From contig JAFOLH010000017.1 of the NCBI GenBank assembly GCA_017419405.1, positions 62,001 to 126,000 of the forward strand: a DNA stretch of 64,000 bases. The letters are read 5' to 3'. Each line of letters opens with the position of its first letter. Within the stretch, counting starts at the first letter, position 1. Made by a program: the position numbers and the translations under genes. Below are positions 8,122 to 29,645 of this stretch, piece after piece. Below the pieces are notes generated by a model. That model saw only the letters and a program-made list of their open reading frames with translations. It searched no databases and had not been told where the DNA came from. Source of the stretch: Renibacterium sp. GTDB lineage: Bacteria > Actinomycetota > Actinomycetes > Actinomycetales > Micrococcaceae.

Positions 8122-9288
8122 ATGACTAGCTATGCCACGGATCCGGGGGCGTCATCGATGACGCCCCCGGATCCCTCCGGGTTCGGCCCGGACGTGTCGG
8201 GGCCGGATCGGGAAGCCGGGCTGTGGACCGTCGATGTGCTCAATGCCTCGATCAGCATGCGTGGCCTGTCCGATGCCGAAATGCACGAGCTGGATCGCTG
8301 CTGGCAGCGGTGCAATCCCCGCCGAGGTGGCGAATCCGAGACCGTAGCCACCCGGCAAGGCGAACTTTCCTGGCGCCAGCAGCAAGAAGACATCGTTTCG
8401 ATGCTGACCCTGGCCGGCATCAACTCGGCGGCCGGGGAACGGCTGATGTTCCACGCCGGCGGGATCAGCGATCCGGAAACCGGCAGGTCCCTTGCATTGG
8501 TCGCCAAATCCGGCACCGGCAAGACCACCGCGGTCCGGAACCTGGCACAGCATTTCGGCTACCTTTCCGATGAAACCATCGCGATCGACCCGGGATCGCT
8601 GCGGATCCTGCCGTATCCGAAACCGTTGTCGGTTCTGGGACCGGACGGCAACCGGCCCAAGCGCCAGTACTCCCCCGATGAATTGGGGCTGCTGCCAGCG
8701 GCGTCGCATCCGGTGCTGGGCAAAATCGCGGTGCTCAACCGGGTGCCGGGTACTGCCGAGGCTTTGGCCGAGCCCTTGGACACCACGGCCGCTTTGCGAT
8801 TGCTGGTTCCCGATTCCTCCTCGCTTTCCCGGCTCGAGCGCGGGCTCGTAGCACTCCTCGAAGTGCTGGAGCGTACCGGTGGCGCAGTCCGGATCAGCTA
8901 CGGCGAAAACACCCAGCTGACGCCCTTGGTGCCGGAGTTGCTCCGGCAGGGCCCGATCGCGAACCCCGATGGGAGGGATTGGACGCCGGCGGATCTCACG
9001 GTCGACGGGCCGCAGCGTCCCGGACCCGGTGCTGGCCGGCTGCGCCGGATCGTTCCGGACGATGCGATCTGGCTGGGTGACTCGGCCGCGATCCTCAATG
9101 CGGAACGGCTCGACGTCATTTCCGGCATCGGGGCGACGATCTGGGCGGCCGCCCGGACCTGGACGGATCAGGAACAATTGCACGAAGCGGTTGTGGCCGC
9201 GCACGGACCGCACCCGGACAGTGCCGCCCTGGCGGCAGACGCCGTCGCCTCGTTGCTCGAGGCCCGATTGCTGGTGCGCTGCGCCTAA
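8122..9288 (+). CDS. HPr-kinase-like ATPase fused to a C-terminal PqqD-like domain
   Basis: The 388-residue protein starts at the ATG after a GGGGGG box; a longer open frame begins at 7978 but overlaps the previous gene. Residues 85-160 hold the kinase-like fold, with Walker A AKSGTGKTT (128-136) and LSDETIAID (148-156) at the place of the 'LSDD' second motif of HprK-like proteins. Residues about 310-388 (AIWLGDSAAILNAERLDVISG through SLLEARLLVRCA) resemble PqqD, the small peptide-binding domain also called RRE. HprK-like kinases and PqqD proteins are usually separate neighbours in polysaccharide, exosortase-linked and lasso-peptide loci; here they are one chain. The substrate is unknown; a peptide or protein phosphorylation role is inference. 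The gene overlaps the convergent flippase gene by 4 nt. Confidence 0.75.
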   Translation: MTSYATDPGASSMTPPDPSGFGPDVSGPDREAGLWTVDVLNASISMRGLSDAEMHELDRCWQRCNPRRGGESETVATRQGELSWRQQQEDIVSMLTLAGINSAAGERLMFHAGGISDPETGRSLALVAKSGTGKTTAVRNLAQHFGYLSDETIAIDPGSLRILPYPKPLSVLGPDGNRPKRQYSPDELGLLPAASHPVLGKIAVLNRVPGTAEALAEPLDTTAALRLLVPDSSSLSRLERGLVALLEVLERTGGAVRISYGENTQLTPLVPELLRQGPIANPDGRDWTPADLTVDGPQRPGPGAGRLRRIVPDDAIWLGDSAAILNAERLDVISGIGATIWAAARTWTDQEQLHEAVVAAHGPHPDSAALAADAVASLLEARLLVRCA

Positions 9289-10667
9289 GCGCGTCGACCA
9301 GAGGACCGGCGCAGGAGCTTTTTGCCGGTGAACCACAGCAGGTCCAAGTCACTTCGCCGGATTCCGTAGAATCCGGCGATCGGCATGCCGAATTTCCGGG
9401 ACAACCAGAACAGGTTGAGATTGCCCGCGACGAAATTGCCGACCAGCGTCGAAACCGCCGCGCCGACGGCGCCCAAGGGGCCAACCAAAAGCAGGAACAC
9501 GATCAGGTTGAGCACTGCGGCGATGCCCATGCTCAGGCTGCGCAGCCCCGGCCGGTTCCGAGCGCTCAAGCCGGCGCCGGCCACCGAGCCGGCAGAGCCG
9601 AGCGAACTCGCCAGCAGCAGGACCAGGGTTGCCGGCACTGCCGCGCTGAAATCCCGGCCGAAGAGCAACGGCAGCCACCACCAGCACGTCGCCCCGAGCA
9701 GCAAGCTCGACAGGAAGGTCAGGAAGGAGGTGATCCGGGCTGCCCGCTGCAGGCGGTGGTCAGCGTGCGCAGAACCGCCTTCGGCCGCATCCGACGGCAG
9801 AATCACACCGCGCACAGCGGACGCGATGAGCCCGGGGGCCTCCCCCACGCTCACCGCCACGACGTAGAGGCCGAGCTGCTTCGCGTTGGACAGCGGGACC
9901 ATCAGCAATTGGTCCATCCGGCTCAAGACGATGCCGGCCAACGAGCCGAACCAGAGCCGTCCGCCGAACGAACCGATCGCGGCAAAACCCAGCTCCGGGT
10001 TCTTTTCATGGACCTCGCGCGCATCGAGCCGGCGGACCAGGAACGGCAGATAGCACAGCGATTCCAGCACCGGCATCGCCAAGATGATCAGGACCGCCAT
10101 GAACGGGGTCAGCCAGCCGCCCAGCCAAAGCACGAGATAACCGGCCAGCCTCAGCGCGGCGGAGCACAGCATCACGGTGGCCGCCAGTTTCCACCGGTGA
10201 CTGCCCAAAGCCAGACCGCGCGGCAGTGAAGCCAGGAAATTCAGTGGCGTGGCAAGCGCGGTGATTCCGATTAGCTGCTGCAACTCGGGATTTCCTGCCG
10301 CGAGCGGGGCTGCGGAAAACCAGACAGCTGCGCCGCAGGCCAAGCCCAGGACGAGCAACAGCACGGCGGACCGGGAAGCGATCTGCCGGGCATTGCGGGC
10401 ATGCTTGGCCACGAAATAGATGATCGCGTCGGGGATTCCCAAAGCGCCGACCGCGACCACGAACAACAAAGGGGCGACCGCAGCCGCCACCAAGCCGCGC
10501 CCTTCCACGCCCAACGACTGGGCCAGAATCGGCGCGGTCACCAAAGAGACGATCGGAACCGCGATATTGATCGCGAAGGAAAAGGCCATCTTTTTCGAGA
10601 AGCTGTCCGTCCGCACGGCCCCGGCAGTGCTGCCGGATGCGTCCGACGCGGGCTTTTCAGCAGTCAT
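9285..10667 (-). CDS. Wzx-type polysaccharide flippase
   Basis: A 460-residue integral membrane protein with about 12-14 hydrophobic segments, starting after a cytoplasmic stretch of 25 residues. The pattern (SFSKKMAFSFAINIAVPIVS, then GVEGRGLVAAA, with paired amphipathic helices) fits the oligosaccharide-flippase branch of the MOP superfamily. Such proteins move undecaprenyl-diphosphate-linked repeat units from the inner to the outer face of the membrane, where Wzy joins them. A Wzy-like protein, an initiating transferase and a Wzc-like protein are in the same locus. An AGGGAA box precedes the ATG. Confidence 0.85.
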   Translation of the reverse strand: MTAEKPASDASGSTAGAVRTDSFSKKMAFSFAINIAVPIVSLVTAPILAQSLGVEGRGLVAAAVAPLLFVVAVGALGIPDAIIYFVAKHARNARQIASRSAVLLLVLGLACGAAVWFSAAPLAAGNPELQQLIGITALATPLNFLASLPRGLALGSHRWKLAATVMLCSAALRLAGYLVLWLGGWLTPFMAVLIILAMPVLESLCYLPFLVRRLDAREVHEKNPELGFAAIGSFGGRLWFGSLAGIVLSRMDQLLMVPLSNAKQLGLYVVAVSVGEAPGLIASAVRGVILPSDAAEGGSAHADHRLQRAARITSFLTFLSSLLLGATCWWWLPLLFGRDFSAAVPATLVLLLASSLGSAGSVAGAGLSARNRPGLRSLSMGIAAVLNLIVFLLLVGPLGAVGAAVSTLVGNFVAGNLNLFWLSRKFGMPIAGFYGIRRSDLDLLWFTGKKLLRRSSGRRA

Positions 10668-10741
10668 CTGGTTCTTTCCCTGTTTGCGTATTGCAGAATT
10701 TTCTCATGTTCGGCAGCAGCCGGAGCGGCTGGCAACACGGC

Positions 10742-10790
10742 AAAAGTCCGCCTGGGGCGGTGACCGGTTCGGTCACCGCCCCAGGCGGAC
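10742..10790 (-). terminator. Strong intrinsic terminator of the secreted protein gene at 10856
   Basis: Arms 10746-10766 and 10770-10790 are perfectly complementary over 21 bp with a three-base loop. On the minus strand the stem is followed by TTTTG. It lies 66 nt after the stop codon at 10856 and isolates the gene from the flippase downstream. Confidence 0.9.
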
Positions 10791-10855
10791 ATCGGCTGCC
10801 TTGGCCGAGATCCCAGGACTGGCTCAGCTCCTGGTGATCGGCGGGCCGATCAGGC

Positions 10856-12274
10856 TCAACCCGTGATCGAGGTCGCCGTCCGGTTGTCCGCGCAGCGGCT
10901 GTTCGACGCAATGCAGAACTGCGGAGCGGTTTCGCCGGTCTTCAGCACGAAGTTGGTCATCCGGTTGTCGCCCCGATTGCTCGGCTGGTTCACCTTGACC
11001 GAATACTTGATGGTCACGGTCTGGCCAGCTGCGAGCGTGCCCTTGATCGTGAACTGGTTGCCGCTGACCGCGCTGACCTGGAGTGCAGCATTGTCGGACA
11101 CCGGCTGGGAGTTGACCGTGGAATCGTCCAGCACCCGGCTCATGTCGTCGAACTCATCCACGATCGCGGGCCGCTGGGTGTTGTTGGTGTAAGTCAGGGT
11201 GTAGTTCAACACCTGGTTGGAGACCATCGCGATCCGCAACGGCACGTCCGAGGTCTTCTTCACCTCGGCGTCGCCGGCCGGGTTGATTGGCACGACACCG
11301 CCGGAGGCCAGGTCTTCCAAGCGGTAGGAGCCGTTGTTGGTGCCCGCGATCTTGGTGATCCCGGTGTTGCTGGCCACGCCGGTGTTCGGGTCGATCGAGA
11401 AGATCCGTCCGTTGGACTGCCCCGTGTACCACTTGCCGTCGAGCCACGCGAATCCGTACTGGGAGCCGGCGCCGGCACCCAGACCGGTGATCTTCAGCAC
11501 CTGCTGCACCGGCACCTCGGCGCCTTCGGCGAAGTTCGAAACATCGAACTTGTAGATGTAGGTTTCGCTGTAGTACTGCACCAAACCGTAGAAATTGCCC
11601 TGCACGTCGAACGCGTAGTCCGGTGCAACGTATCCACCGCCGGCCCACACCCGGTCGCCCGCGGGAGCCACCAGTCGACCGCTCACCACGGTGGTGTTGG
11701 TCTTGGAGTCGAACATGCTGATCTTCGTGCTGGTGGTGCCGAGCAGATTGGTGCCCTGCCAATAGCGCCCTTGGGTGTCCACGGCGCCGCCGCCCCATGC
11801 GGTACCGCCGGTGCGGTTGCCGCTGGACTGCCGGGCCTGGCCGATCTCTTCGACGTTGGTGGATCCCTCAGTGGCCTTGAAGACTTCCGGGCGGTTGCTG
11901 TTGTAAGCACTGCCCTGGAACGCCATCTTGCTGTTGTCTTGGGGGTCCGGCCCCAGGCCGAGGTTGGACGCCCAGTAATACGTCGGGACGGCGGCGCTGC
12001 GGCTGGCGATTTCCTCCTGCGCACCGGTCTTGACGTTGATTTTGATGATGCTGCCGCCAGAAGAGGCATACAGCGAACCGGTATCGATGGCCACCGGCTT
12101 GTTGTTGTTCAGCGGGAATTTTTGCCCAGTGGCCGCACTGGCCGGTGCCGCAGTCGCGACGAGTCCGAACGGGGCGAGGAGCGCCGCGCCCAGAACCAGT
12201 GCCGCGACGGTGGCTGCCCGGGGCTTTCGCATCGGACGCCCGCTTGCGGCGAGCGCATGAACTTGCTTACTCAT
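10856..12274 (-). CDS. Secreted propeller protein with C-terminal DUF11-like domain
   Basis: The 472-residue product begins at the ATG reading MSKQVHALAASGRP. The frame is open for 34 more codons upstream, but the signal peptide favours this start. Residues 16-48 are a Sec signal (AALVLGAALLAPFGLVATAA, cleavage near ASA-47). Residues 50-330 contain propeller-like units (TGSLYASSGG, YWQGTNLLGT, FYGLVQYYSE, WYTGQSNGRIFSIDPNTG). Residues about 345-472 resemble a DUF11-type Ig-like domain (NQVLNYTLTYTNNTQRPAIV, AGQTVTIKYSVKV), common in surface proteins. The last part has CIASNSRCADN, a likely disulfide. No cell-wall anchor was seen. It has its own terminator and lies upstream of the flippase gene on the same strand. 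A role in the outer surface is inferred from context. Confidence 0.82.
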   Translation of the reverse strand: MSKQVHALAASGRPMRKPRAATVAALVLGAALLAPFGLVATAAPASAATGQKFPLNNNKPVAIDTGSLYASSGGSIIKINVKTGAQEEIASRSAAVPTYYWASNLGLGPDPQDNSKMAFQGSAYNSNRPEVFKATEGSTNVEEIGQARQSSGNRTGGTAWGGGAVDTQGRYWQGTNLLGTTSTKISMFDSKTNTTVVSGRLVAPAGDRVWAGGGYVAPDYAFDVQGNFYGLVQYYSETYIYKFDVSNFAEGAEVPVQQVLKITGLGAGAGSQYGFAWLDGKWYTGQSNGRIFSIDPNTGVASNTGITKIAGTNNGSYRLEDLASGGVVPINPAGDAEVKKTSDVPLRIAMVSNQVLNYTLTYTNNTQRPAIVDEFDDMSRVLDDSTVNSQPVSDNAALQVSAVSGNQFTIKGTLAAGQTVTIKYSVKVNQPSNRGDNRMTNFVLKTGETAPQFCIASNSRCADNRTATSITG

Positions 12275-12402
12275 GGTTACCCAATCTGTTTTTGTTGGTG
12301 GGTGCGGATCTGCACGCGCAGAAGTGATCTTGTGTTTCGCTTTCGCAGCCCAGACCGCCACGTCCCCCGGTATCACCGGCCTGAGCAGAAAATCAGCGGC
12401 TT

Positions 12403-13116
12403 CTAGCCGCGCAGCGTCTGGGCCCGGTTGGCCGCTTCCGGCGACATGCCGTTGGCCGGTCCGGCAGCCCGGGCCGACCGTTGCGGGGCGCGCATCGGCG
12501 CGCCGGCCGGATTGAGACCGCCGAAGCGCTGTGTCGCCCCAGGAGTGCCGAGGATCTGCTTGCCGTCGACGATGGCCCGGCTCTGCATCCTCAGATACAC
12601 CGCAGTGCCAGCGGGGGCTGAAGAGTTGAAGCTCAAATCCTGCATCGGGATGGTCGTCACCGGATCGCTCGCGGTGACCGTGCCTTTGTACTTGATCACG
12701 TACTTGCGGAACCGACGGCCGTCGATGGTGACCACTTCGGCGGCGACCGGGAGCGCCCAGTCGCTGGATTGCTCGGTCCAGGTCAAAACGGGAGCAGTAT
12801 CCTCATCTTCACGGCCGTCGATGCTCACGAAAAGGTCGATCTCCAGATTGGTGATCGTCGAGTTGACCGTGGTCCCGGTGATCTGGAGATTCCGGCGGTT
12901 CCCGTTCGCATCCTCGCCGCGGACCTCGACGCCGCCTTCCCAAGCCGAAACATCGAGTTCACCGATGATCGTGGAAGTCACGGATGCGGCTGCCGCTGGC
13001 GCTGCGACCGCCATGGCCACCACGGGCGCGGTCCAGGCCGCGGATTTCACCACCGTCCGGCGGCTCACCGCCTCCGGGAACTTCAGTTCCGAGCCCACGT
13101 CATTCGTATTTTTCAT
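12403..13116 (-). CDS. Tat-exported protein of unknown function
   Basis: The 237-residue protein carries a twin-arginine signal: SRRTVVKSAAWTAPVVAMAV at residues 19-38 with a cleavage site after AAAA near 48. The SRRTVVK...WTAP form is shared by a group of small actinobacterial exported proteins. The mature domain (about 50-200) is predicted all-beta; it ends in an Ala/Pro/Arg-rich low-complexity tail. No enzyme motif was recognised. A GGGGGA box precedes the ATG and a consensus -35 element lies 139 nt upstream. It and the gene at 10856 are separated by 128 nt with no terminator, so they may form one unit. Confidence 0.8.
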   Translation of the reverse strand: MKNTNDVGSELKFPEAVSRRTVVKSAAWTAPVVAMAVAAPAAAASVTSTIIGELDVSAWEGGVEVRGEDANGNRRNLQITGTTVNSTITNLEIDLFVSIDGREDEDTAPVLTWTEQSSDWALPVAAEVVTIDGRRFRKYVIKYKGTVTASDPVTTIPMQDLSFNSSAPAGTAVYLRMQSRAIVDGKQILGTPGATQRFGGLNPAGAPMRAPQRSARAAGPANGMSPEAANRAQTLRG

Positions 13117-13230
13117 TTTCGAGCATCCCCCAAATTCAAGATTAGATCAAACTCGCATCATCTTATTCAGCGATCATTATTTAAATTGATTTCACGACAA
13201 TAATCGCCACCAAAGATGACCTGCCTCTAC

Positions 13231-13521: not shown

Positions 13522-13538
13522 TCGACAGGAAATTCATC

Positions 13539-14267: not shown

Positions 14268-14292
14268 CCCCGCTTCGGATTCATCGGCATTT

Positions 14293-14308: not shown

Positions 14309-14394
14309 GACGAACATTTCCGTGTCATAAAGTCGCCATGCGCCGAACCCCTCCCCGGACGCACACTGCATAGATGCTCAAGGGGAGAGCCAGA

Positions 14395-15945
14395 TTGTCA
14401 ATTCTCGATTCACGCGCGCCTGCGGAAAGCAGGCTGCAGCAGCATGTCCGCGATCGTCCCTTCGAGCCGCTGCGCCAGGCCGGCGAGCGGAAACCGAATC
14501 GATCGGACGGCTGGCGGCCCCGCTACCGGCGGCGGCTGCGGCTGCTAGACGCGCTGGCCATCGTGACTGCGGTGCTGATCGCCCAGTTCGTGCGGTTCGG
14601 CGACGACTTCGACGACCAAGGCATCATGCTCTTCAACCAGCATGTGCCCTACTGGGTGCTGGGTTTGATCCTGGCCGCGATCTGGTGGCTGGGCCTTGGC
14701 GCTTCCGGCGGCCGGAACGTGCGGCTGCAAGGCACCGAGGCGGCACGCAAAGTCCTCAATGCCACGTTGGCGGTCTTCGGCAGTGTCGCGATTCTGTCCT
14801 ATGTCTTCGGGCTGCCTACTGCGCGCGGCTACATCCTGGTGGCGTTGCCCACCGGACTGCTGCTGATTCTGGCCCTGCGGCTCCTCGCCCAACGGCACTT
14901 GATCCGGGGCCGCACGGACTCCGCCGAGAACATGTCCCGCACCGTGATCTTGGGCCGGCGGCTGGCTGCCGAACAGGTCATGAACCACATGGACGCCAAT
15001 CCGGCCGCCGGGCTGAAGCCGGTGGCCATCTATCACCCGCGCAGCGACGACGGCCCGTTGCTGCATGAAGGGAACTACGATTCCGGAGCGCAATACCTGC
15101 GCGGACGTCCGGCGGTCGATGAGATTTTGGCCGCCTTGCATTCCTTGCAAGCCGAAAGCGTCGTGGTCACCGATGAGACCGGCCTGACGCCCAAGGAAGT
15201 CCGCCGTTTCGGCTGGGCCCTGGCGGATTGCGGCATCCGGCTGATCCTGGCACCGTCGCTGAGCGGCATCGCAGGCCCCCGGATCCACTCCCAACCGCTC
15301 AACGGGCTCCCCTTGATCCACGTTTCGACGCCGCAATTGAGCGGTCTGAAGAAGCAGCTGAAACGTGCCTTCGACCTGCTCGCGGCGTCGACGCTGCTCC
15401 TGCTGCTCTCCCCGGTGCTGCTGACTACCGCCGTCGTGATCAAACTCTCCGATCGCGGGCCGGTATTCTTCCGGCAGAAGCGGGTCGGCCTGAATCGCTC
15501 CGAATTCCCCATGTTCAAATTCCGCAGCATGGTGCCCGAGGCCGAATCTCTCAAGCAGAAGCTGGCGTCCGACCAAGGCGGCAGCAATGTCCTGTTCAAG
15601 GTCAAAGACGATCCCCGGGTCACGCGCGTGGGCAGGTTCATCCGCAAATACAGCATCGACGAATTGCCGCAACTGCTGAACGTGATCATGGGCCACATGT
15701 CCCTGGTCGGCCCCCGCCCGCCGCTGCCTGCGGAAGTGGAACGCTATGAAGACGACGCGCACCGCCGGCTCCTGGTGCTCCCGGGCATCACCGGGCTCTG
15801 GCAGGTATCCGGCCGATCGGACCTGTCCTGGGAACAAGCAGTCCACTTGGACCTCTATTACGTGGAGAACTGGTCCTTGTCTTCGGACATCCTGATCCTG
15901 CTGAAAACCTTGAAAGCGACGCTGAAGTCCAATGGCGCATACTGA
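14395..15945 (+). CDS. Polyprenyl-phosphate sugar-phosphate transferase (initiating enzyme)
   Basis: The enzyme transfers a sugar-1-phosphate to undecaprenyl phosphate, the first step of repeat-unit synthesis. A GGGGAGA box 8 nt before the TTG at 14395 favours that start (516 residues); the in-frame ATG at 14374 lacks such a box. Residues 45-170 contain four or five membrane segments, followed by a CoA-binding-like Rossmann region (TVILGRRLAAEQVMNHM). The C-terminal 200 residues are the catalytic domain of the WbaP/WcaJ/CpsE type: KRAFDLLAASTLLLLLSP, PVFFRQKRVGLNRSEFPMFK, FRSM, SIDELPQLLNV, SLVGPRPPLP and ITGLWQVSGRS. It heads a compact plus-strand run with the phosphatase, kinase, nucleotidyltransferase and glycosyltransferase genes. 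Confidence 0.95.
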   Translation: MSILDSRAPAESRLQQHVRDRPFEPLRQAGERKPNRSDGWRPRYRRRLRLLDALAIVTAVLIAQFVRFGDDFDDQGIMLFNQHVPYWVLGLILAAIWWLGLGASGGRNVRLQGTEAARKVLNATLAVFGSVAILSYVFGLPTARGYILVALPTGLLLILALRLLAQRHLIRGRTDSAENMSRTVILGRRLAAEQVMNHMDANPAAGLKPVAIYHPRSDDGPLLHEGNYDSGAQYLRGRPAVDEILAALHSLQAESVVVTDETGLTPKEVRRFGWALADCGIRLILAPSLSGIAGPRIHSQPLNGLPLIHVSTPQLSGLKKQLKRAFDLLAASTLLLLLSPVLLTTAVVIKLSDRGPVFFRQKRVGLNRSEFPMFKFRSMVPEAESLKQKLASDQGGSNVLFKVKDDPRVTRVGRFIRKYSIDELPQLLNVIMGHMSLVGPRPPLPAEVERYEDDAHRRLLVLPGITGLWQVSGRSDLSWEQAVHLDLYYVENWSLSSDILILLKTLKATLKSNGAY

Positions 15946-16567
15946 CCCGGCCCGCTTGCCCGGCCGGCCGCAAGCCACGATTCTGATCCTGTGCACCGGC
16001 AACATCTGCCGCTCGGCATACGCCGAGCAGGAACTCCGCGCCGGGTTCCGGCGACTCGGAGCAACCGCTCCACGCGTCATCTCCCGCGGAACCCGGGTCA
16101 ACCCCGGGCTGCGCACGCCGCGGGAGCTGCTCGAGGCCGCCGGCAAGAACGCCGAAGGCCTGCAATACCGGGTTCCGGAACAGCTGACCGACCAGGACGT
16201 CCGGAGCGCCTCGATCATCCTCGCCGCCAGCGGCGAGCACCTGACGGACGCGCTGCGAAGAGTGCCGGCGAAAATGCGGCGAGCCTTCACGCTCGCCGAG
16301 TTCGCGCACGCCGCCCGATTCCAGCCGGCGGCTCCGGGAGCGCAGCCGTTTCCCGACCAGGACTGGCTGAGCATTCTGCAGGAGCACGCCAGCGCACGCC
16401 GTTCGGAGATCCGGGCCGAACTGCGCGGCCGGATGGACATCCCGGATCCCTACGGCCACAGCTCCGAAGCCTATGCCTCAATGGTCGCCACAGTGGACCG
16501 ACACATTGCCGAAATCGCCGGCTTCGCGCTGGCACAGACCAGGACAACGGCGTCGAATTCCGCCTGA
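15932..16567 (+). CDS. Low-molecular-weight protein-tyrosine phosphatase (Wzb-type)
   Basis: The P-loop CTGNICRS (residues 21-28, Cys21 and Arg27) and the general acid in DPYG (Asp172) identify the family. At 211 residues it is longer than the usual 150, with extra residues at the N-terminus and in the centre. It overlaps the transferase gene by 14 nt and lies just before the tyrosine-kinase gene. In such loci the phosphatase dephosphorylates the C-terminal tyrosines of the Wzc-like kinase, a cycle needed for polymer export. Confidence 0.92.
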   Translation: MAHTDPARLPGRPQATILILCTGNICRSAYAEQELRAGFRRLGATAPRVISRGTRVNPGLRTPRELLEAAGKNAEGLQYRVPEQLTDQDVRSASIILAASGEHLTDALRRVPAKMRRAFTLAEFAHAARFQPAAPGAQPFPDQDWLSILQEHASARRSEIRAELRGRMDIPDPYGHSSEAYASMVATVDRHIAEIAGFALAQTRTTASNSA

Positions 16568-16583
16568 CGCCAAGGAAGTGAAG

Positions 16584-18260
16584 ATGAAGTCTCAGGAAAC
16601 AGACCCCAAGAATACCGAACAGTGGAGCGCCCGAATCGGCATGCTCCGCGAGTTCGGCGCCTCATTGCGCCGCCGCTGGCCGGTGCTGCTTTTGGCCGCT
16701 ACGCTGGGTGCCGGCGCCGGTTTCGCCGCGACGCTGACCCAGCCCAAGCTCTACACCTCCGATGCCAGCGTCGTGGTTTCCACCGGGGTGAACGACAATC
16801 TGGGCCTGGCGCTTTCCGCGGACAACCTCGCCATTTCGAAGGCCAAGCAGTACCAGACGATGGCAAGCTCTCGAGTCGTTGCGGAGCGGGCGCTCGAAAT
16901 CGCCAAGATCGACAGTTCAGCGGCGCTTGCGATCTCACGGGTCTCCGCGACCTCGCGGATCGACACCGCGGCGATCAACATCCGGGCTTCGTGGCCCAAC
17001 CCGCAGCAAGCCCAGGCCTTGGCCGACGCTTGGTCGCAGGCTTTGGCCCAAGAGGTGTCCAATGTGGAAAACCAACGGACCCCCGGCACCCAGGGCAATA
17101 CCGGTCCCGCCCCGAGCTCGGGGAATTCCAACGGGGCGACCGGCACCCGGCAAGGCGCCGGCGAATCCGTGATCAAAATCCAGCCCTTGGTCCCGGCGAA
17201 CCTGCCCACTGGACCCAGTTCGCCCAATATCCAGCTCTGGGCCGCGGTCGGGCTCAGCATCGGTTTGGCGCTGGGCCTGCTCTTCATCCTGGTCCGCGAA
17301 ATTTTCGATCAGCGGATCCGTTCCGTGGCGACCTTGCAGGACGACTTCGGCCAGACCGTGGTCGGCACGGTACCGGTTTCCTCCGGCGTCGGCGAAGACC
17401 GGCTCGTGAAGTCATTGGGCCGGTCCAACATGCGGGACAATTTTGCGGTGCTCGAGGCCTTCAAAGAACTGCGCACGAACCTGCGCTTCATGAACCCGGA
17501 CCAGCCGCCGCGGGTGATCGCGGTCTCCAGCTGCCTGCCCGGCGAAGGGAAATCCACGGTCGCCTCGAACCTGGCGATCTCGATCGCCTCCACCGGCCAA
17601 CCAGTGGTCTTGGTCGATGGCGACCTCCGCCGGCCCACCGTCGCCCGGACCTTCGATCTGCTGGAGAACATCGGACTCACCGACGCGGTCGTCGGCTCCG
17701 CTCCGATCGCCGAACTCTTGCAGGACGTCGCAGGCTATCCGGCGTTGAAGGTCCTGGGTTCCGGACCGATCCCGCCAAATCCTTCCGAGATCCTCGCCTC
17801 GGACACCATGCTTCGGCTCATGGCGGAGTTGAGCAAGACCCATTTCGTGATCATCGACGCGCCGCCGGTCATCTCGATCACCGATTCGGCGATCCTTGCC
17901 GCGCAATTCGACGGCGTGCTGCTGGTCGTCCGAGCCGGCTCCACCACGCGCGATGAATTCGCCAAGTCATTGGACAGCATCCAGAAGGTGCAGGGCACGG
18001 TCTTGGGCTGCGTGCTGAACTGGGTGCCCACCGGCAAAGCCGAAGGTTCCCGTTATGGCTATTACGGAAAATCGTATTACTACACGTCGACGGCAGAGCC
18101 CGGGGCCGCGAAACCGCGGAAACCCGCCAGTCCGTTTGCCGGCAAGAGCCGTGGGCGCAAACAGGCCGCCATGCAGACCATGAAACACGGCGCCAAAACC
18201 AAGGAAACCGTCGAGATGCGTGCGGAACAGCTGCTGTCCCGACCGACGAACGTCCGGTAG
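16584..18260 (+). CDS. Polysaccharide co-polymerase with BY-kinase domain (Wzc-like)
   Basis: The ATG at 16584 follows an AAGGAAG box and gives 558 residues. Residues 32-52 and 217-238 are two membrane segments enclosing a Wzz-type extracytoplasmic domain with a Gly/Ser/Asn-rich stretch at 167-195. The cytoplasmic kinase domain has Walker A LPGEGKST (318-325), Walker A' VVLVDGDLRR (341-350) and Walker B FVIIDAPP (421-428). A tyrosine cluster at 491-500 (YGYYGKSYYY) is the probable autophosphorylation site. Sensor and kinase are in one chain, as in proteobacterial Wzc and many actinobacterial proteins. It would control chain length and export together with the polymerase at 20113. Confidence 0.95.
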   Translation: MKSQETDPKNTEQWSARIGMLREFGASLRRRWPVLLLAATLGAGAGFAATLTQPKLYTSDASVVVSTGVNDNLGLALSADNLAISKAKQYQTMASSRVVAERALEIAKIDSSAALAISRVSATSRIDTAAINIRASWPNPQQAQALADAWSQALAQEVSNVENQRTPGTQGNTGPAPSSGNSNGATGTRQGAGESVIKIQPLVPANLPTGPSSPNIQLWAAVGLSIGLALGLLFILVREIFDQRIRSVATLQDDFGQTVVGTVPVSSGVGEDRLVKSLGRSNMRDNFAVLEAFKELRTNLRFMNPDQPPRVIAVSSCLPGEGKSTVASNLAISIASTGQPVVLVDGDLRRPTVARTFDLLENIGLTDAVVGSAPIAELLQDVAGYPALKVLGSGPIPPNPSEILASDTMLRLMAELSKTHFVIIDAPPVISITDSAILAAQFDGVLLVVRAGSTTRDEFAKSLDSIQKVQGTVLGCVLNWVPTGKAEGSRYGYYGKSYYYTSTAEPGAAKPRKPASPFAGKSRGRKQAAMQTMKHGAKTKETVEMRAEQLLSRPTNVR

Positions 18261-18273: not shown

Positions 18274-19266
18274 ATGCCTAGTCAACCGCTGGTCTTCGAT
18301 TCCCGGGGGCCGAACGCCAACCGCGCCTATATTGCGCTGGCGCTCGGCTTGATCGGCTGGATCTCCGCGTCCCGGGCGGTGGATGCGGTGCTGGTCAAAG
18401 GAGCTGCTGCCGAATTGACCGGTCTGCGGCCGGCCTACAATTTCGGTGACGTCGACATCGTCGTCAGACCAGCCGAGCTGGAAGTCTTCCGTGACGAGTT
18501 GGCGCAACGCGGCTGGTTGTCCCGTCCTTTCGAGGACAAGGACGACGTCTTCCCCAAGCACTCGATCTCGATGTACCACCCGCAGTGGCCGATCGACATC
18601 GACATCCATTACCGGTTCCCCGGTTTCGAGGCCGCAACCGAAGACATCATCGATGAAATCCGCAAAGACGCCTTGCTACTGCGCACCGGTGAGCTTCCGC
18701 TGGAAATCCCTTCCCGATTGGGTTGCATCGTCTTCCAAGCGCTGCACCAGCTCCGTTCCCCTTGGGAAGCCGGCAGCCCGGCGGCACTGGCCGAGCTGCA
18801 CCGGCGATCCGCCGACATCAGCGCTGACCAGTTGCTCGACTTCGCCCGGCGCACCGACTGCCTGGCGGCGTTGCGGCCGTTCCTGGAGCAACGTCCGGAC
18901 TTCCCGGCCGATGGCATCAGCTTCCCAGCGCCTTCCGCGGAGTGGCGGCTCCGCACGCTGGGCCAGGATTCCGCCTCGATCCGGATATTCACCTTGCTGC
19001 GCGCCCCCTGGTGGAAAAAACCCAAGCTCGCTTGGAAAGCCGCTTTCCCCTCCCGCACGGCCTTGGCCGCCAAAGACATCGCGATTGCGGAGCGCAAACC
19101 GCCGCTGCCCAGAATCCACGCGCAACGGATCCTCCGGTTCGGCAGGAATCTTCCGAAAACCATCCGGTCGGTCCGCAAGCTACTGGCCACCGAGCGGCAG
19201 ACCGAGCGAACCCGCAGGGCGCCATCGCGGCCGGCACCCGAGAGGAGCGAATTCAATGCAGATTGA
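18274..19266 (+). CDS. Family-5 nucleotidyltransferase-like protein
   Basis: The 330-residue product matches the uncharacterised NTP_transf_5 group: an N-terminal helical part, VLVKGAAAELTGL (39-51) and the metal-binding NFGDVDIVVRPAE (56-68, Asp59 and Asp61). A histidine/aspartate-rich segment follows (PIDIDIHYRFPGF) and then a helical C-terminus. Homologues occur beside PqqD-like proteins, HprK-like kinases and glycosyltransferases. In the lasso-peptide pathway of pseudomycoidin such an enzyme extends a kinase-made phosphate on the peptide. That chemistry is not proved for this protein. It begins 13 nt after the kinase gene and overlaps the next gene by 11 nt. Confidence 0.7.
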   Translation: MPSQPLVFDSRGPNANRAYIALALGLIGWISASRAVDAVLVKGAAAELTGLRPAYNFGDVDIVVRPAELEVFRDELAQRGWLSRPFEDKDDVFPKHSISMYHPQWPIDIDIHYRFPGFEAATEDIIDEIRKDALLLRTGELPLEIPSRLGCIVFQALHQLRSPWEAGSPAALAELHRRSADISADQLLDFARRTDCLAALRPFLEQRPDFPADGISFPAPSAEWRLRTLGQDSASIRIFTLLRAPWWKKPKLAWKAAFPSRTALAAKDIAIAERKPPLPRIHAQRILRFGRNLPKTIRSVRKLLATERQTERTRRAPSRPAPERSEFNAD

Positions 19267-20131
19267 CCCGCAAGGACCGAAGCTCAAGCGGCAGGCGCTC
19301 AAAGCGCTGCGTCTGAGCGCTCTGAAAAGCCAAAATCTGGCCTCGCGGAAGATGCTTTGCGATCCGGCCGGCACGGTGGACGTTTCGCTCACCTCTTACG
19401 GGGACCGTTTGGCCACGGTCGGTTACGCGATCGAATCGATCGCCCAAGGGGATACCCTCCCCCGACGACTGATCTTGTGGGTTTCCGACCACGGCTTCGA
19501 CCTCGCCGACTATCCCCTGCTGGCACGTTTGGTCCGGCGTGGCCTGGAAATCCGGGAAACGCCCGACTACGGCCCGTACAAGAAGAGCTATCCGTATGCG
19601 GTCCGGCTTCGGACCCCCGGAATAGACCTGGTGACCGCGGACGACGATGTGCTCTATCCCAAGGGCTGGCTGGCCGGCCTGCTGCGTGCTGCCCAGGAGC
19701 ACCCCGGCGATGTCATCGGCTACCGGGGCGCGGCAGTGAGTTTCGATGCCGACGGCGCGGCACTGCCCTACGCGCAATGGCGCCGGCTCAGTGCGCCCGA
19801 AGCCGGCAACCATGTTCTGCTCACCGGTGTGGCCGGCATCTACTACCCTTTTGCCTTTTTGGCGCACCTGGCGGACCAGGGCGAAGCATTCCGGGCGAAC
19901 TGCCCTTCGGCAGACGACTTCTGGATGCACCGCCTTTCACTGCTCGCCGGAGTACGGCCCCGGTCGATTGAATCCGGTTCCATGTACCTCTTGTCGATTC
20001 CGCGGACCCAGCGGAACCCCTTGCACCGGATCAACGTCACGGCCGGGCAGAATGACGTGCAGTTCGCAGCCATCACCACCGCCGAGGAACTGGCCGCGAT
20101 CCGACGCTCGGCTCAGGAATCCGTGACATAG
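19256..20131 (+). CDS. Glycosyltransferase, family 2-like
   Basis: The 291-residue protein starts at the ATG after a GAGGAG box and overlaps the nucleotidyltransferase gene by 11 nt in another frame. VDVSLTSYGDRLATVGYAIE (41-60) and a metal-binding DDD at 129-131 (VTADDDVLYPKGWL) fit an inverting GT-A fold. A central GVAGIYYPF and an acidic PSADDFWMH segment would be the acceptor side. It is the last gene of the plus-strand polysaccharide operon and runs tail-to-tail into the polymerase gene with a 19-nt overlap. The donor and acceptor sugars cannot be told from the sequence. Confidence 0.75.
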   Translation: MQIDPQGPKLKRQALKALRLSALKSQNLASRKMLCDPAGTVDVSLTSYGDRLATVGYAIESIAQGDTLPRRLILWVSDHGFDLADYPLLARLVRRGLEIRETPDYGPYKKSYPYAVRLRTPGIDLVTADDDVLYPKGWLAGLLRAAQEHPGDVIGYRGAAVSFDADGAALPYAQWRRLSAPEAGNHVLLTGVAGIYYPFAFLAHLADQGEAFRANCPSADDFWMHRLSLLAGVRPRSIESGSMYLLSIPRTQRNPLHRINVTAGQNDVQFAAITTAEELAAIRRSAQESVT

Positions 20132-21486
20132 CGCCGGTACGGCGCCTGCCGCATCGCGCCGACCGGCACCCGGACCGGTTCCGGCTCGCGCTCCTCGGTC
20201 GGTTCGCCGACCGGATTCACCGTTTCCGGTGCGTTGCTGCCGCGACCCGCTGACGGAAGATTCCGCAGCAGGCTGCCCGCATTGTAGGAACACACACCGG
20301 CCAAAACCCACAGGGCATAACCGGTGAAGCTCAAGGAAGAGAAGGCACTATTGGTGTTCTCGACCATCAGGAAGCCCAGCAGGCCGATTCCGGCAATGAT
20401 CGCGAGCTTTCCGTAGCGGAAGCTCCGGAAAGCGATGAAGAGCAGCAACCCGATCAGAATGACCGCGAACACCAGCCCATAGTTCACCGCGGCCATGAAG
20501 AGGGCATTTTCCAGACTGGACGACAAGGTCTGGCTGCCGCGGAAGTCCCGGTTCCCTTGATACCCGGTGAACACGAAGGACTCCATGTTCTGCAAAAACC
20601 AGGAGTAGGCCTCGATCCGCCTGGCCGTGGAACCATTGTCATTCTGGATTTTCTCGAAAATCTCCTCGGCACCGCCAGTGGCCACGAATCCTGCCATGGC
20701 TCCGCCTGCTGCTGCGAAGACCACGAAATTCGCCGCATATGAGCGGGCGGCGTAAAACGCCATGATGACGAACAGCAGGATGCCGACAATGAGGGCCGCC
20801 CGGCTGGACGAGAGCAGCATGGTGTACAAGAACAGCAGCGCCAAACCGAACCTCAAGACCGCTGAACGGATCCAGAAGCAGAAGACCATGGCCAGGATCA
20901 TCGCGCTGCCCAAACCCAGCCCGAATTCCAGGAATCCTTGGCTCCGGCCGAAACCGCCGTCTTCACCGACCCATAGCCTGCGGAACGCGGACTCCCAAAC
21001 CAACAGAGCACCTTGCTGGTTTTGGATGATCGCCATGACCGACTGGACTACCGAAAAGAGCAGGTAGCCGTAGATGACCACCAAGATCTTTTTCGTCCCG
21101 TCGAAACACAATGCCCGGATCAGCACGTAGAGCAGAAACGGAGCGAGGTAGATCCGGATGATGTCGGAGGCGGCCGAAAGCGGGGAGACGAATTGGCTGA
21201 AGATGTTCGCAACGGCCAGCAGCATCAGCATCGCAAACACGAAAATCTCGACTCTGCTGAGGTAGAACGCCTTGAGCGTGCCGGAAAAATTCCAGATGAG
21301 CTGCACCAGGAACACCGCAACGAGCAAATACACCGAAGGGTCGAGGAACGGCACGAACTCCACCGACGCCGAACTCGGGATGAAGTAGCGGGCCGCAATC
21401 ACCGCCGCCACTGCGTATTCGAGCCGGTTCCGCAGCAGGAAAGCAATGCCGACCGAGGCCGCCACGACCAAGACAAAAAGCATCAT
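20113..21486 (-). CDS. Wzy-type polysaccharide polymerase / O-antigen ligase-like
   Basis: A 457-residue membrane protein with about 11-12 hydrophobic helices and the large outer loop typical of Wzy/WaaL proteins. The loop holds ENALFMAAVNYGLVFAVILI, and an upstream loop has GRSQGFLEFGLGLGSAMIL. The SSSRAALIVGIL motif is a familiar Wzy_C sequence. The C-terminal 35 residues are polar and proline-rich. It is the last gene of the eight-gene minus-strand operon, its start overlapping the preceding stop by 4 nt. It would join lipid-linked repeats outside the membrane. Confidence 0.88.
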   Translation of the reverse strand: MMLFVLVVAASVGIAFLLRNRLEYAVAAVIAARYFIPSSASVEFVPFLDPSVYLLVAVFLVQLIWNFSGTLKAFYLSRVEIFVFAMLMLLAVANIFSQFVSPLSAASDIIRIYLAPFLLYVLIRALCFDGTKKILVVIYGYLLFSVVQSVMAIIQNQQGALLVWESAFRRLWVGEDGGFGRSQGFLEFGLGLGSAMILAMVFCFWIRSAVLRFGLALLFLYTMLLSSSRAALIVGILLFVIMAFYAARSYAANFVVFAAAGGAMAGFVATGGAEEIFEKIQNDNGSTARRIEAYSWFLQNMESFVFTGYQGNRDFRGSQTLSSSLENALFMAAVNYGLVFAVILIGLLLFIAFRSFRYGKLAIIAGIGLLGFLMVENTNSAFSSLSFTGYALWVLAGVCSYNAGSLLRNLPSAGRGSNAPETVNPVGEPTEEREPEPVRVPVGAMRQAPYRRYVTDS

Positions 21487-25738: not shown

Positions 25739-27027
25739 TTGACTGCCCCCTGCAACGACGGGCTGACCGATTCCAGGGCCTGGCGCCAAGCTTCCTGCAC
25801 CACTCGGACCGACATGGTCTCGGCGAGCAGCGCACGCCCTGCAGCGCCGAGCGCGGCAGCTGTCTCGGGCTGCCGGATCAGAATTTCGATGTGCTCGGCC
25901 AGGCCTTCCGCGTGTTCCGCGACCAGTGCGTGTTGGCCCTCGACGACCGGTATCCCGGCGACCCCGAGCCCGGTTGCCACCACCGGCAGCCCGACGCTCA
26001 TCCCGTCGAGCACCTTGGTCTTCACCCCGGTTCCCACGGTGACCGGAGAAAGGAACATCCGATGCCCCTGCAACGCCGTGGTGAGCTCGTCCTGGTATCC
26101 GAGGACCGTGATTTCGGGGCAATCGGCGAATTCCGCTGCCTGGGCCGGAGTGGCCGCGCCGATGACGTCCAGTTGCAAAGCCAGTCCCCGTTCGCGCAGC
26201 AACGGCAAGACCTCGTCCCGCAGGAACCGGAGCGCGGCCATGTTCGGGCCGTAGTAGAGGGCACCCAGAAACACTGCGGTGCCGGCCCCGGCTTCCGCGG
26301 GATCCGCAGGTTCCCGCGGATCCACCGCCATCGGGATGCCCTTGACCGCCTGCCCGGAGCGTGCTGCCAGGATTTCGGCCTCCGCCCGGCTGGTGAGCGC
26401 GGTGAAGTGCGCTTGCTGCGCCACGAAAACTTCGCGCCGGGCCAATCTGCGGGCTTCGAAACCCAGCAGGAGCTTGGCCATCCGCTCGGCGGTCGGAACC
26501 AGGAACTGCGGCAATTGCGTGGAAAAGTAGCCCAGAACCGATTCGTTCCCAGCCATGAACTTCGGGTCCCGGTAGCGCTCGGAAAGCAAGTCGTCCAAGT
26601 GCATGATGGTCGGCAGGCCCAAGTCTTGGACCAGGGGCCAGATCCGGATCCCGTCCGCGATCACAATCTGCGCCGCGCTGTCCGAAACTGCGGACCGCAC
26701 TTCACCGTGGATCGGCTTGGCGTCGAATATGGATTCATTCAGCGAGCTGCCGCCGAGCAACGCCCGCACGGCATTGGCCGCGAGCGCACCGGGCGCCGGC
26801 GGCGCAACCCGACGCACCGGGCAGCCCAGCCAATGCTCCGGACCGGGCTCGGAAGTCAAAGCGAGGATCGTGACTCGGTGGCCTTCCGCGGTCAAAGCTT
26901 GCACTGCGGTCTCCAGGACCGCGATCCGCCCGTTGCGTTGCCCGGTGATGTTCCGCGCAGCCACCAGCAAGATGTTCGCCGAGGCCCCATCGGCACGCTC
27001 CACGATGCTTGAATCAATCCCGGTCAT
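25735..27027 (-). CDS. Glycosyltransferase, GT4/group-1 type
   Basis: The 430-residue protein shows NILLVAARNITGQRNGRIAV and GHRVTILALTSEPGPE in the N-terminal acceptor half. The donor half reads AVFLGALYYGPNMAALRFLR, then MFLSPVTVGTGVKTKVLDGM and GLPVVATGLGVAGIPVVEG. This matches group-1 transferases that use nucleotide sugars. It lies between the LCP ligase and the aldo/keto reductase with 4-nt overlaps on both sides. Confidence 0.9.
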   Translation of the reverse strand: MTGIDSSIVERADGASANILLVAARNITGQRNGRIAVLETAVQALTAEGHRVTILALTSEPGPEHWLGCPVRRVAPPAPGALAANAVRALLGGSSLNESIFDAKPIHGEVRSAVSDSAAQIVIADGIRIWPLVQDLGLPTIMHLDDLLSERYRDPKFMAGNESVLGYFSTQLPQFLVPTAERMAKLLLGFEARRLARREVFVAQQAHFTALTSRAEAEILAARSGQAVKGIPMAVDPREPADPAEAGAGTAVFLGALYYGPNMAALRFLRDEVLPLLRERGLALQLDVIGAATPAQAAEFADCPEITVLGYQDELTTALQGHRMFLSPVTVGTGVKTKVLDGMSVGLPVVATGLGVAGIPVVEGQHALVAEHAEGLAEHIEILIRQPETAAALGAAGRALLAETMSVRVVQEAWRQALESVSPSLQGAVK

Positions 27028-28073
27028 GATTTCCCCAATCCGGCGAAGAAGGATCCGACCGCATCGTCCCGGAGCGCTGAGCCGAACTGCTGAATCGCCT
27101 GGTCATCGGGCAACACGATGGACTGTCCGTCCGGAGAGGTTCCGGTGCCCAGATTGGGCAGGGTGGCGAAGTACATCTGATTGGCACCGACATTGCGCAG
27201 GCTCAGGCCCAAGGACCCGATCGCACCGGCGTTGAAGTTCTGGTCTACCGCGACGAACGGCGCGAATTCGGTGACCATATTGCTGATCTTTCCCGGGTCC
27301 AGCAAGACATCACGACTGGCGATCTTGGCGAAAACCCCTTTCAGGAAGGCCTGTTGGTTGCGCACCCGTTGGTAATCGCCGTCGGCGAAGGCATAACGTT
27401 CGCGGACAAACGCCAGGGCGGTTTCGCCGTCCATGTTCTGGGGTCCGGCTGCGAAGGCCCGGTCGACGGTCGTCGCCTGGTATCCGAAAGGCACATTGAC
27501 GGTGACTCCGCCGAGCGCATCGACCAATGACTTGAATCCTTCGAATTGGATCCGCATCACATTGTCGATCCGCGCCCCGGTCAGGCTCTCGATGGTCTGG
27601 ACGGTCAACGCACTGCCGCCGAAGGCTGATGCGGCGTTGATCTTGGCCGGGCCGCGGCCCGGAATATCGACCCAGGTGTCGCGCATGATGGAGGTGAAGG
27701 ACACCGCCGAGCGGTCCTGCGGAATATGCGCCAGAATCAGCGTGTCCGAGCGCGCGTTGTCCGGGACGTCGGCGTCTGCCGCGTCCGAGGCGGCACGCGA
27801 GTCGCTGCCCAGCAGAAGGATGTTCAAACCTTTGCCTTCTGCGGCAGCCGGCCTGTTCACTTCGCTCGGGAACGCATTCGAGATCTTCTCGGATCGGCTG
27901 TCGAAGGCGCTGGACAGCGACCAGAGGAACCACCCGCCGACGCCCGCCGCTGCCAACACCAAGGCGAGGAAGAAAACCAGCACTTTGGCCGTGGTCCGTT
28001 TTTTCTTGCGCGTCCTCCGGCGCTTGACCGGTTCGTCCGTCAGCACATTGAACATTTGGCTGCGCTCAGTCAT
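27024..28073 (-). CDS. LytR-CpsA-Psr (LCP) family cell-wall polymer ligase
   Basis: A 349-residue protein with a strongly basic cytoplasmic start (KRRRTRKKKRTT), one membrane segment (31-50) and an extracellular LCP domain. Conserved blocks are NILLLGSDSR (84-93), RSDTLILAHI (108-117), SIMRDTWVDIPG (128-139) with catalytic arginines, and KINAASAFGGS. LCP proteins move an undecaprenyl-linked polymer onto peptidoglycan. Its presence in the operon indicates that the polysaccharide is anchored to the wall rather than released. It overlaps its neighbours by 4 and 8 nt. Confidence 0.95.
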   Translation of the reverse strand: MTERSQMFNVLTDEPVKRRRTRKKKRTTAKVLVFFLALVLAAAGVGGWFLWSLSSAFDSRSEKISNAFPSEVNRPAAAEGKGLNILLLGSDSRAASDAADADVPDNARSDTLILAHIPQDRSAVSFTSIMRDTWVDIPGRGPAKINAASAFGGSALTVQTIESLTGARIDNVMRIQFEGFKSLVDALGGVTVNVPFGYQATTVDRAFAAGPQNMDGETALAFVRERYAFADGDYQRVRNQQAFLKGVFAKIASRDVLLDPGKISNMVTEFAPFVAVDQNFNAGAIGSLGLSLRNVGANQMYFATLPNLGTGTSPDGQSIVLPDDQAIQQFGSALRDDAVGSFFAGLGKS

Positions 28074-29214: not shown

Positions 29215-29276
29215 ACAAGGGGTGACTTCGGCGAAGCAATTATGATGGGAAACCCGGGAAAAGAGAGCTAAGTCAC
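29208..29276. promoter_or_regulatory. Triple AAGTCAC/GTGACTT boxes in the divergent promoter
   Basis: AAGTCAC at 29208-29214 and GTGACTT at 29222-29228 form a perfect 7-bp inverted repeat with a 7-nt spacer over the start of the GT4 gene. A third copy, AAGTCAC, is at 29270-29276. A possible minus-strand -10 box (CATAAT, 29244-29239) lies between them. The layout suggests an operator controlling the minus-strand operon and perhaps the PqqD gene. No regulator for it was identified. Confidence 0.4.
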
Positions 29277-29351
29277 TAAATCCGGCGGCGGGCCGGGCTG
29301 GCGACGGCCAAACGTCAGGACCCGAACCGATCCGGCGATAGAGTACTCCTT

Positions 29352-29645
29352 GTGAAGAATACGTCGTTGGTGAGCCGTCGCTTGGAGACGAGCACGGCTT
29401 CGATCGACGACGGGAGCGCTTTGGTCCTTGACCTGAGCTCCGACAATTGCGTGCCGCTGCGCTTGGAAGGATCCGCGCTGGCGATTTGGGCCGAACTCAG
29501 CGAACCGGTCGAATTCGGCGAACTCTGCCGTCGGATGGCGCAACGCTTCGGCGCCGTCGAAACCAGCATCAGCCCGGACATTGAAAAGTTCGTCACGGAA
29601 CTCGTCTCCGCGCACCTGGTCCAAGTCGACGGGAAGCCTGCCTAG
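29352..29645 (+). CDS. PqqD-like (RRE-type) small protein
   Basis: The 97-residue product starts at GTG and fits the PqqD fold: a short beta hairpin (ALVLDLSSDNCVPLRLEGSA), then a winged-helix part (AIWAELSEPVEFGELCRRMA, AQRFGAVETSISPDIEKFVT, ELVSAHLVQ). PqqD-like domains bind leader peptides and present them to modifying enzymes. It is divergent from the minus-strand polysaccharide operon. It resembles the C-terminal domain of the fusion protein at 8122. No ribosome-binding site was seen, so the message may be leaderless. The peptide partner is unknown. Confidence 0.7.
   Translation: MKNTSLVSRRLETSTASIDDGSALVLDLSSDNCVPLRLEGSALAIWAELSEPVEFGELCRRMAQRFGAVETSISPDIEKFVTELVSAHLVQVDGKPA

Follow-up and report, generated by a model that had tools for sequence, protein, structure and literature searches.

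Closest described systems and the locus

Linear polyphosphorylated peptides (LPP) of Bacillota derive from clusters in which a discrete recognition element (RRE) for ribosomally synthesized and post-translationally modified peptides (RiPP) is combined with an HprK-like kinase and a nucleoside triphosphate (NTP) transferase, without a cyclase, in a capsule locus (Popov et al., 2026, PMC13381572, May 2026). Ser3 of the core peptide is phosphorylated by the kinase LppK and, according to the authors' discussion, LPPs are restricted to Bacillota, the peptidase network being "predominantly" from the same phylum (PMC13381572). A similar combination is found in a polysaccharide locus of Renibacterium sp. 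(Actinomycetota), analysed here within a stretch of 64,000 nucleotides (the window; assembly GCA_017419405.1, contig JAFOLH010000017.1, positions 62,001 to 126,000). In this locus an HprK-like kinase, a nucleotidyltransferase (NTase) and a free PqqD protein, together called the kit, are accompanied by an exported protein, the candidate client, whose export signal carries a match to the motif recognised by RREs. The kit is likely to be an LPP-like cytoplasmic modification system for exported proteins, in which the export signal serves as leader. The features on which this reading is based are the following.

8122..9288, + strand: HprK-like kinase with C-terminal PqqD/RRE domain, 388 amino acids (TIGR04352, invariant residues, PF05402 in relatives)
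8509..8529, + strand: Walker A SGTGKTT of the kinase, residues 130-136 (S130, G131, G133, K134 and T136 invariant, n=30)
9046..9279, + strand: C-terminal PqqD/RRE domain of the kinase, ~residues 309-386 (evidence from relatives)
18274..19266, + strand: NTP_transf_5-type NTase, 330 amino acids (PF14907 in relatives, invariant acidic residues)
29352..29645, + strand: free PqqD/RRE protein, 97 amino acids (PF05402 33.4 bits, over the cut-off of 23.4)
12403..13116, - strand: candidate client, exported, 237 amino acids, signal SRRTVVKSAAWTAPVVAMAVAAPAAAAS (profile A5, E 2.4e-17)
12988..13116, - strand: client residues 1-43, signal peptide with the predicted cleavage site AAA|AS (inferred from sequence by the AxA rule)
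13018..13035, - strand: W-T-A-P-V-V, match to the RRE motif [Y/W]xxPx[L/V/I/F/A] (PMC13381572), W -16/P -13 of the predicted site
12982..12984, - strand: conserved Ser45 (W+17), predicted modification site (inferred from Ser3 of LPP)

The RRE, the kinase and the NTP transferase of the LPP set each have a counterpart here. The discrete RRE corresponds to the product of 29352-29645, whose family profile finds LppB (structure 9x8z) at 9.7e-9; the HprK-like kinase is so placed by sequence only and lies under the TIGR04352 cut-off; and the NTP transferase corresponds to a family matched by PF14907 in 26/26 members, an assignment that holds for this side of the comparison. The likeness extends to the substrates: in both systems a conserved N-terminal region with [Y/W]xxP is followed by a variable remainder, the motif has the same spacing (Tyr -16/Pro -13 in LPP, Trp -16/Pro -13 of the predicted site here), and the modified serine would stand just past the cleavage, as Ser3 in LPP and as the predicted Ser2 here (PMC13381572).

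The two systems also differ in several respects. The LPP precursor pattern YxxPxVLxHQxIxFETxxS is absent here, where WTAPVV lies in a twin-arginine-like signal, only the core [Y/W]xxPx[LVIFA] being common to both; the SipW-like type I signal peptidase (SpI) and the MsbA-like transporter of LPP clusters have no counterpart among the scanned open reading frames (ORFs) of the window; and an RRE is fused to the kinase in addition to a second RRE, a fusion that does not appear in the passages of the LPP paper considered here (PMC13381572). Moreover, the clients measure ~150-520 amino acids against 35-200 for LPPs (PMC13381572), and they are full-size, variable proteins encoded in many genomes by several scattered genes. 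The term "twin-arginine" does not occur in the text of PMC13381572. The earlier note had supposed that a wall-polymer locus also modifying a peptide or protein would be new. An RRE, an HprK-like kinase and an NTP transferase without a cyclase in capsule loci are already known from the LPPs of Bacillota, and what goes beyond the passages considered is the phylum, the export signal as leader, the kinase-RRE fusion, the scattered full-size clients and the genome-wide pairing described below (PMC13381572). A full-text literature search (PMC open licences; no preprints, few subscription journals) returned no actinobacterial form by title or abstract.

Paeninodin-type clusters for phosphorylated lasso peptides share with the window the HprK-like kinase, the NTP transferase and an RRE preferring a WxxP leader (PMC13381572), and these common components could suggest a degenerate lasso-peptide cluster left after loss of the cyclase and the B2 protease. 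Neither a macrolactam cyclase nor a B2 protease is present among the scanned ORFs, in agreement with the earlier note: no Pfam match to an asparagine-synthetase-like cyclase, a B2-type protease or an ABC transporter was obtained in 23 ORFs (5640-29645, up to E 0.1). Such a decayed origin is, however, very improbable, as the kit is conserved in many genera with its catalytic residues intact and its clients are exported proteins of ~150-520 amino acids instead of short precursors. A more distant parallel is the PEP-CTERM/exosortase system (PMC1569441), in which one processing system is likewise paired genome-wide with many proteins bearing a common sorting signal, with a link to exopolysaccharide; unlike PEP-CTERM, the signal described here is N-terminal, and kinase, NTase and RRE take the place of the exosortase.

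Kinase, nucleotidyltransferase and recognition domains

The window kinase matches TIGR04352 (HprK_rel_A) with an E-value of 2.2e-5 and 23.7 bits against a cut-off of 200, while TIGR04353 was unmatched up to E 1. The earlier note had likened the kit to the HPr-rel-A systems; membership is rejected on score, and a resemblance to TIGR04352 persists in 26/30 aligned kinases (window included, best 4.1e-9). PEPCK_ATP gave a weak match in 2/30. Besides the Walker A residues listed above, the 30 kinases all share H111, D150/E151 and K167-S170 (KPLS). The alignments A1, A2 and A3 consist of 30, 26 and 21 frames chosen by hand from those found, and A6 covers 17/29 named kinase loci, the other 12 being excluded because their frames were split, truncated or too long. 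Since the best 60 matches of the kinase profile to solved structures comprised RREs and generic P-loop proteins and no HprK, the label HprK-like rests on the similarity to TIGR04352 and on the residues. Viral contigs scanned with six short patterns of the window kinase, a weak test, gave no relative.

The C-terminal PqqD domain of the kinase was overlooked in the earlier note. PF05402 gives no match in the window's own kinase, so that the domain call rests on relatives: PF05402 matches 14/30 aligned kinases, several genomes exceed its cut-off at the coordinates of the kinase C-terminus, and the RRE structure 9x8z is found by the kinase profile at profile positions 284-373, TbiB1 being also reached by the C-terminal part. 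In Nocardioides, Demequina and one Propionibacteriales metagenome-assembled genome, kinase and PqqD are separate adjoining genes, with the PqqD gene directly after the kinase in the Nocardioides and Demequina loci.

The free PqqD protein is the sole PF05402 match of this genome at E ≤ 0.001, and 20/21 aligned free PqqD proteins (window included) match the same family. The profile of these proteins retrieves 5v1u (TbiB1) at 2.2e-15 and 9x90 at 1.4e-10, ahead of 9x8z, with PQQ-type PqqD ranking lower; 9x8z is LppB and 9x90 is PbaB1 (PMC13381572). As far as profile matches can tell, the free PqqD is a lasso/LPP-type RRE.

The window NTase matches PF14907 at E 9e-6 and 25.8 bits, under the cut-off of 31.2, whereas the 26 aligned NTases (window included) are all matched, with a best value of 2.5e-19. 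D59, D61 and D110, which we take to be the pol-beta-type acidic residues, are invariant in the alignment; the NTase profile found no match among solved structures. In one genome (G024, L039:1057-2379) a single frame unites an NTase match with one to PF05402 that exceeds the cut-off, and the order PqqD-kinase-Wzc-NTase is present in six Arthrobacter/Pseudarthrobacter loci (L112, L113, L115, L116, L117, L139). The fusion or adjacency of PqqD and kinase, this gene order and the single PqqD/NTase frame tie PqqD to both enzymes.

The three genes are open, all on the + strand and where the earlier note had placed them, spread over 21 kb of one polysaccharide locus among Wzx/Wzy/Wzc-type genes, and their products are the HprK-like, NTP_transf_5-type and PqqD-like proteins named there, to judge from the TIGR04352, PF14907 and PF05402 matches given above. 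Their association extends to relatives. Among 149 genomes of the family searched at E ≤ 1e-5, 41 have the kinase; 39 of these, and no others, have the NTase too (Fisher 7e-34). Kinase and NTase lie within 50 kb in 23 of these 39 genomes, 82 kb apart in one, more than 100 kb apart on the same contig in 6, and on different contigs, at whatever distance, in 9; G104 and G137 carry two kinases each, one of which was used for this count. PF05402 (E ≤ 0.01) was found in 42 genomes of the family, 39 of them kinase-positive, several of the matches being the kinase's own C-terminus. It occurs without the kinase in G005, G017 and G114 and was not listed for the kinase-positive G036 and G047; in G036 an RRE-like frame follows the NTase. 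As the co-occurrence persists where the genes are far apart, the kit is kept together by function and not by position alone. These data support the view that kinase, NTase and PqqD form one co-inherited kit sitting with polysaccharide-assembly genes, and the outcome that would have refuted the earlier note, the genes lying far apart in related genomes without co-occurring, did not arise, their co-occurrence being far beyond chance.

A candidate client with an RRE motif in its export signal

No short conserved precursor peptide stood out when ORFs of at least 25 amino acids were compared across genera in 41 loci (window bases 1-36500 and 40 fetched loci; the first 60 clusters). What recurred among the small families were PqqD proteins, an SRPBCC-like protein and genes of housekeeping type, and the search was therefore turned to secreted proteins. 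In the kinase neighbourhoods, secreted proteins with a twin-arginine-like N-terminus adjoin many kinases, and a signal profile, A5, was built from 21 such stretches, with the majority sequence RR-x-V-V-K-G-A-A-W-S-V-P-V-I-A-A-A-x-A-A-P-A-A-A-A-S. L131, because of an insertion, L137, whose client is ~6 kb away from the kinase, and matches of the regular expression due to chance were left out, and the expression missed the clients of L120. The window client, 12403-13116, is the first row of A5 and also the only A5 match of its genome at E ≤ 0.01.

According to Popov et al. (2026, PMC13381572), the motif bound by discrete RREs of lasso clusters is [Y/W]xxPx[L/V/I/F/A]. Among 85 clients, collected with the help of 40 client regions hand-chosen from a genome-wide A5 listing, W and P are present in 85/85 and the full published motif in 82/85, the other 3 having Met at W+5. 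The way in which these proteins were gathered tells against taking the counts at face value: the rows of A5 come from genes beside the kit, and the regular expression required W and P, which makes their invariance there one of construction; furthermore, 35 of the 85 clients come from kit loci and 50 from regions selected by A5 matches. As the selection rule contained W and P, the search was repeated with the WxxP columns masked, on loci fetched for the kit alone, and 9/9 matches outside the training rows (E ≤ 1e-3) have both residues in register.

Further along, strong conservation of a polar residue is next seen at W+17, a position occupied by Ser in 80 clients and by Thr in 3 (n=85). Cleavage after W+15, as the AxA rule predicts it, would put W at -16 and P at -13 and leave this serine as the second residue of the mature protein. 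Up to 17 A5 matches occur per genome. In the clients scanned, the window's and a set of 15 different proteins, Pfam and NCBIfam gave only matches under the cut-offs, some of them to Ig-like domains, and no family covers these clients. In paeninodin the phosphorylated residue is reportedly a C-terminal serine. Such a site was rejected for these proteins, the C-termini of the 85 clients being variable, and Ser at W+17 is preferred.

Pairing of the signal with the kit

The A5 signal follows the kinase across the family. At E ≤ 1e-6 it is present in 44/149 genomes, namely in 40/41 kinase-positive and 4/108 kinase-negative ones; at E ≤ 0.01 it is present in 51/149, again with 40/41 of the kinase-positive. 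A strict DNA pattern of the motif occurs in 14 genomes, all kinase-positive (reversed control 0), and misses 27 kinase-positive genomes, the window's included. Two signal-positive genomes carry remnants that are probably decaying copies of the kinase: two neighbouring partial pieces in G061 (G061:C22:167846-168099) and a C-terminal part in G083 (G083:C4:201355-201621).

The same association was found at the order level in 297 genomes of 94 genera, a set that overlaps the former, so that the two tests are not independent. With thresholds of E ≤ 1e-10 for the kinase, 1e-5 for the signal and 1e-8 for the NTase, kinase and signal were found in 58 genomes each: both in 53, the kinase only in 5, the signal only in 5 and neither in 234 (Fisher 1e-46). 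The NTase was found in 57/297 genomes, in 52 of them strongly (E 1.5e-42 or better), and 52/52 of the strong ones have kinase and signal; the weak NTase genomes 232, 235, 262, 357 and 405 were set aside. In G412 the NTase alone is missing. The kinase-only genomes G249, G262, G301, G325 and G376 have neither the signal nor a strong NTase; there the kinase is perhaps put to a different use.

Such an association could arise if the signal were a lineage-specific variant of the twin-arginine translocation (Tat) signal that common ancestry or common gene islands have brought together with the kit. Many clients adjoin the kinase and could travel along with it: 58/146 listed order-level signals lie within 10 kb of the kinase, and the signal is within 5 kb in 25/51 genomes with listed signals, both counts covering the part of the order-level signals that was listed. 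In genus g40 rows of at least three signal genes stand beside the kinase (G174, G218, G257, G283, G309, G353, G383). Nevertheless, in eight genera having both kinds of genomes the signal follows the kinase, with 20/20 kinase-positive against 4/38 kinase-negative genomes; in many cases copies of the signal stand on distant contigs; and the signal is missing, along with a strong NTase, from all five kinase-only genomes. We therefore regard common descent or common islands as an improbable source of the pairing.

Among the 29 named kinase loci, found by the kinase alone, 15 contain a signal gene, and seven of these supplied A5 rows. Of the eight families counted, Wzc is the commonest neighbour, in 20/29 loci, and it often stands directly before the NTase, as in the window (16473..18260), where the true start of the Wzc-like gene is possibly further in. 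This neighbourhood, together with the usual logic of nucleotide-sugar supply, to which a kinase and a nucleotidyltransferase would conform, could mean that both enzymes serve the polysaccharide pathway, acting on a sugar, a lipid carrier or Wzc, and that the signal-bearing proteins are mere common passengers of surface loci. We consider this unlikely, though the least so of the alternatives: PqqD domains of the lasso/LPP type bind peptide ligands, many signal genes track the kit although a long distance or a contig boundary separates them from the kinase, and the signal motif is the RRE motif in nearly all clients (82/85).

Proposed mechanism and its strength

Gene identity, co-inheritance, physical linkage and motif identity are observed. 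Starting from these, the LPP-like modification of exported proteins would proceed as follows. Two RRE domains, the free one and that of the kinase, would bind W-x-x-P-x-[IVLM] inside the twin-arginine-like signal in the manner of RREs on RiPP leaders; the HprK-like kinase would phosphorylate the conserved Ser at W+17, the predicted mature residue 2; the NTase would extend or cap the phosphate; the modified protein would be exported and then cut at the AxA site; and the phospho-linked group might join the protein to, or anchor it in, a surface polymer, a role suggested by the linkage to Wzx/Wzy/Wzc loci. Ranked by strength, binding of the signal by the RRE comes first; then come modification of the client by the kinase, assignment of the site to Ser45, the extending step of the transferase and, last, coupling to the polymer. 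Export by Tat following modification in the cytoplasm, an order of events that this route permits, would be in keeping with the lack of an MsbA-like transporter. The guess of the earlier note that a peptide or protein is modified is strengthened by the client family with its RRE-motif export signal, while phosphorylation and sugar or nucleotide transfer keep a conditional standing.

Several observations weigh against this mechanism. With regard to the pairing, at the looser E ≤ 0.01 the signal is also matched in 11/108 kinase-negative genomes of the family; G124 has kinase and NTase without the signal at this threshold (best 0.129), and a relaxed search in G124 and the five kinase-only genomes reached at best E 0.005. 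The signal-only genomes G077 and G074 of the family contain at most a weak P-loop match (E 2e-5 or worse), as do those of the order-level set (G158, G219, G232, G244, G354), where the kinase search was blank or equally weak, and 14/29 named kinase loci are without a signal gene in the stretch examined. As for the chemistry, the RRE residue contacting Tyr/Trp, its position placed by count, is Gln in 8/21 free PqqD proteins and Asp in the window's own, and Gln at this position belongs to the W-binding PbaB1 and Asp to the Y-binding LppB (PMC13381572). Deletion of LppN was without effect in the published expression test, which makes the NTase step weak, and LppK does not accept Thr instead of Ser3, so that the 3 Thr clients fit poorly (PMC13381572). 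Finally, the Tat routing of the clients is judged by eye and may be stated as presumptive.

In its widest form the proposal would be that Actinomycetota use a twin-arginine signal with W-x-x-P-x-[IVLM] as a RiPP leader: the signal would recruit RRE domains, and kinase and NTase would then, still in the cytoplasm, equip the N-terminal Ser of numerous full-size surface proteins with a phospho-linked group that might serve to join them to a Wzx/Wzy polymer. This many-to-one decoration would be reminiscent of PEP-CTERM, and to the whole we give an even chance. For a kinase/PqqD/transferase set without a name in the library models, it would supply a candidate for the substrate and for the modified residue as well as a recognition signal, and the LPP concept would extend from Bacillota to Actinomycetota. 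Moreover, the pairing statistics suggest that RiPP-type leader recognition may reach ordinary exported proteins beyond small peptides, and the question why such kits sit in capsule loci becomes directly testable.

Locus context and further neighbours

The genes tuf and rpsJ are neighbours as a rule. In the window a Wzx/Wzy-type polysaccharide locus is flanked by rpsJ (4894-5304) and tuf (30049-31239), as identified by Pfam, and in the nearest genome, G097, the two genes likewise flank a polysaccharide locus, corresponding to 4894-31239 of the window. Besides the kit and the client, the locus contains the following genes.

9285..10667, - strand: Wzx-like flippase (PF01943, 63 bits)
10856..12376, - strand: secreted-looking DUF7927 protein adjoining the client (PF25549, 98.9 bits)
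14374..15945, + strand: polyprenyl-phosphate sugar-1-phosphate transferase (TIGR03025, 406.8 bits)
15932..16567, + strand: low-molecular-weight protein tyrosine phosphatase (PF01451, 56.4 bits)
16473..18260, + strand: Wzc-like chain-length determinant with tyrosine autokinase domain (TIGR01007, 168.2 bits)
20113..21486, - strand: Wzy-like polymerase (PF04932, 24.2 bits, under its cut-off)
27024..28073, - strand: LytR-CpsA-Psr (LCP) transferase (PF03816, 149.8 bits)

Three GT4-type glycosyltransferases, an aldo/keto reductase and a GMC oxidoreductase complete the set. The DUF7927 protein is a context gene and, by its signal, not a client. Between rpsJ and the kinase a 797-amino-acid frame (5640-8033) has a signal-like N-terminus and is blank in Pfam (E ≤ 0.1) and NCBIfam (E ≤ 1); the corresponding place in G097 leaves no space for it.

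No signal-peptidase match was obtained among the scanned window ORFs. A signal peptidase gene (bacterial type by eye) occurs in 4/29 named kinase loci, and signal peptidases (type I by eye) are near the kinase, some adjoining it, in L081, L083, L084, L087, L090, L100, L101, L113, L114, L118 and L122. A kinase-adjacent signal peptidase may possibly be a dedicated leader peptidase, as LppS in LPP. In L074, L075, L084, L100 and L101, which represent several genera, the kinase sits among other genes and adjoins a 166-amino-acid SRPBCC-like protein and a 1200-amino-acid Mfd-like protein, both named by eye.

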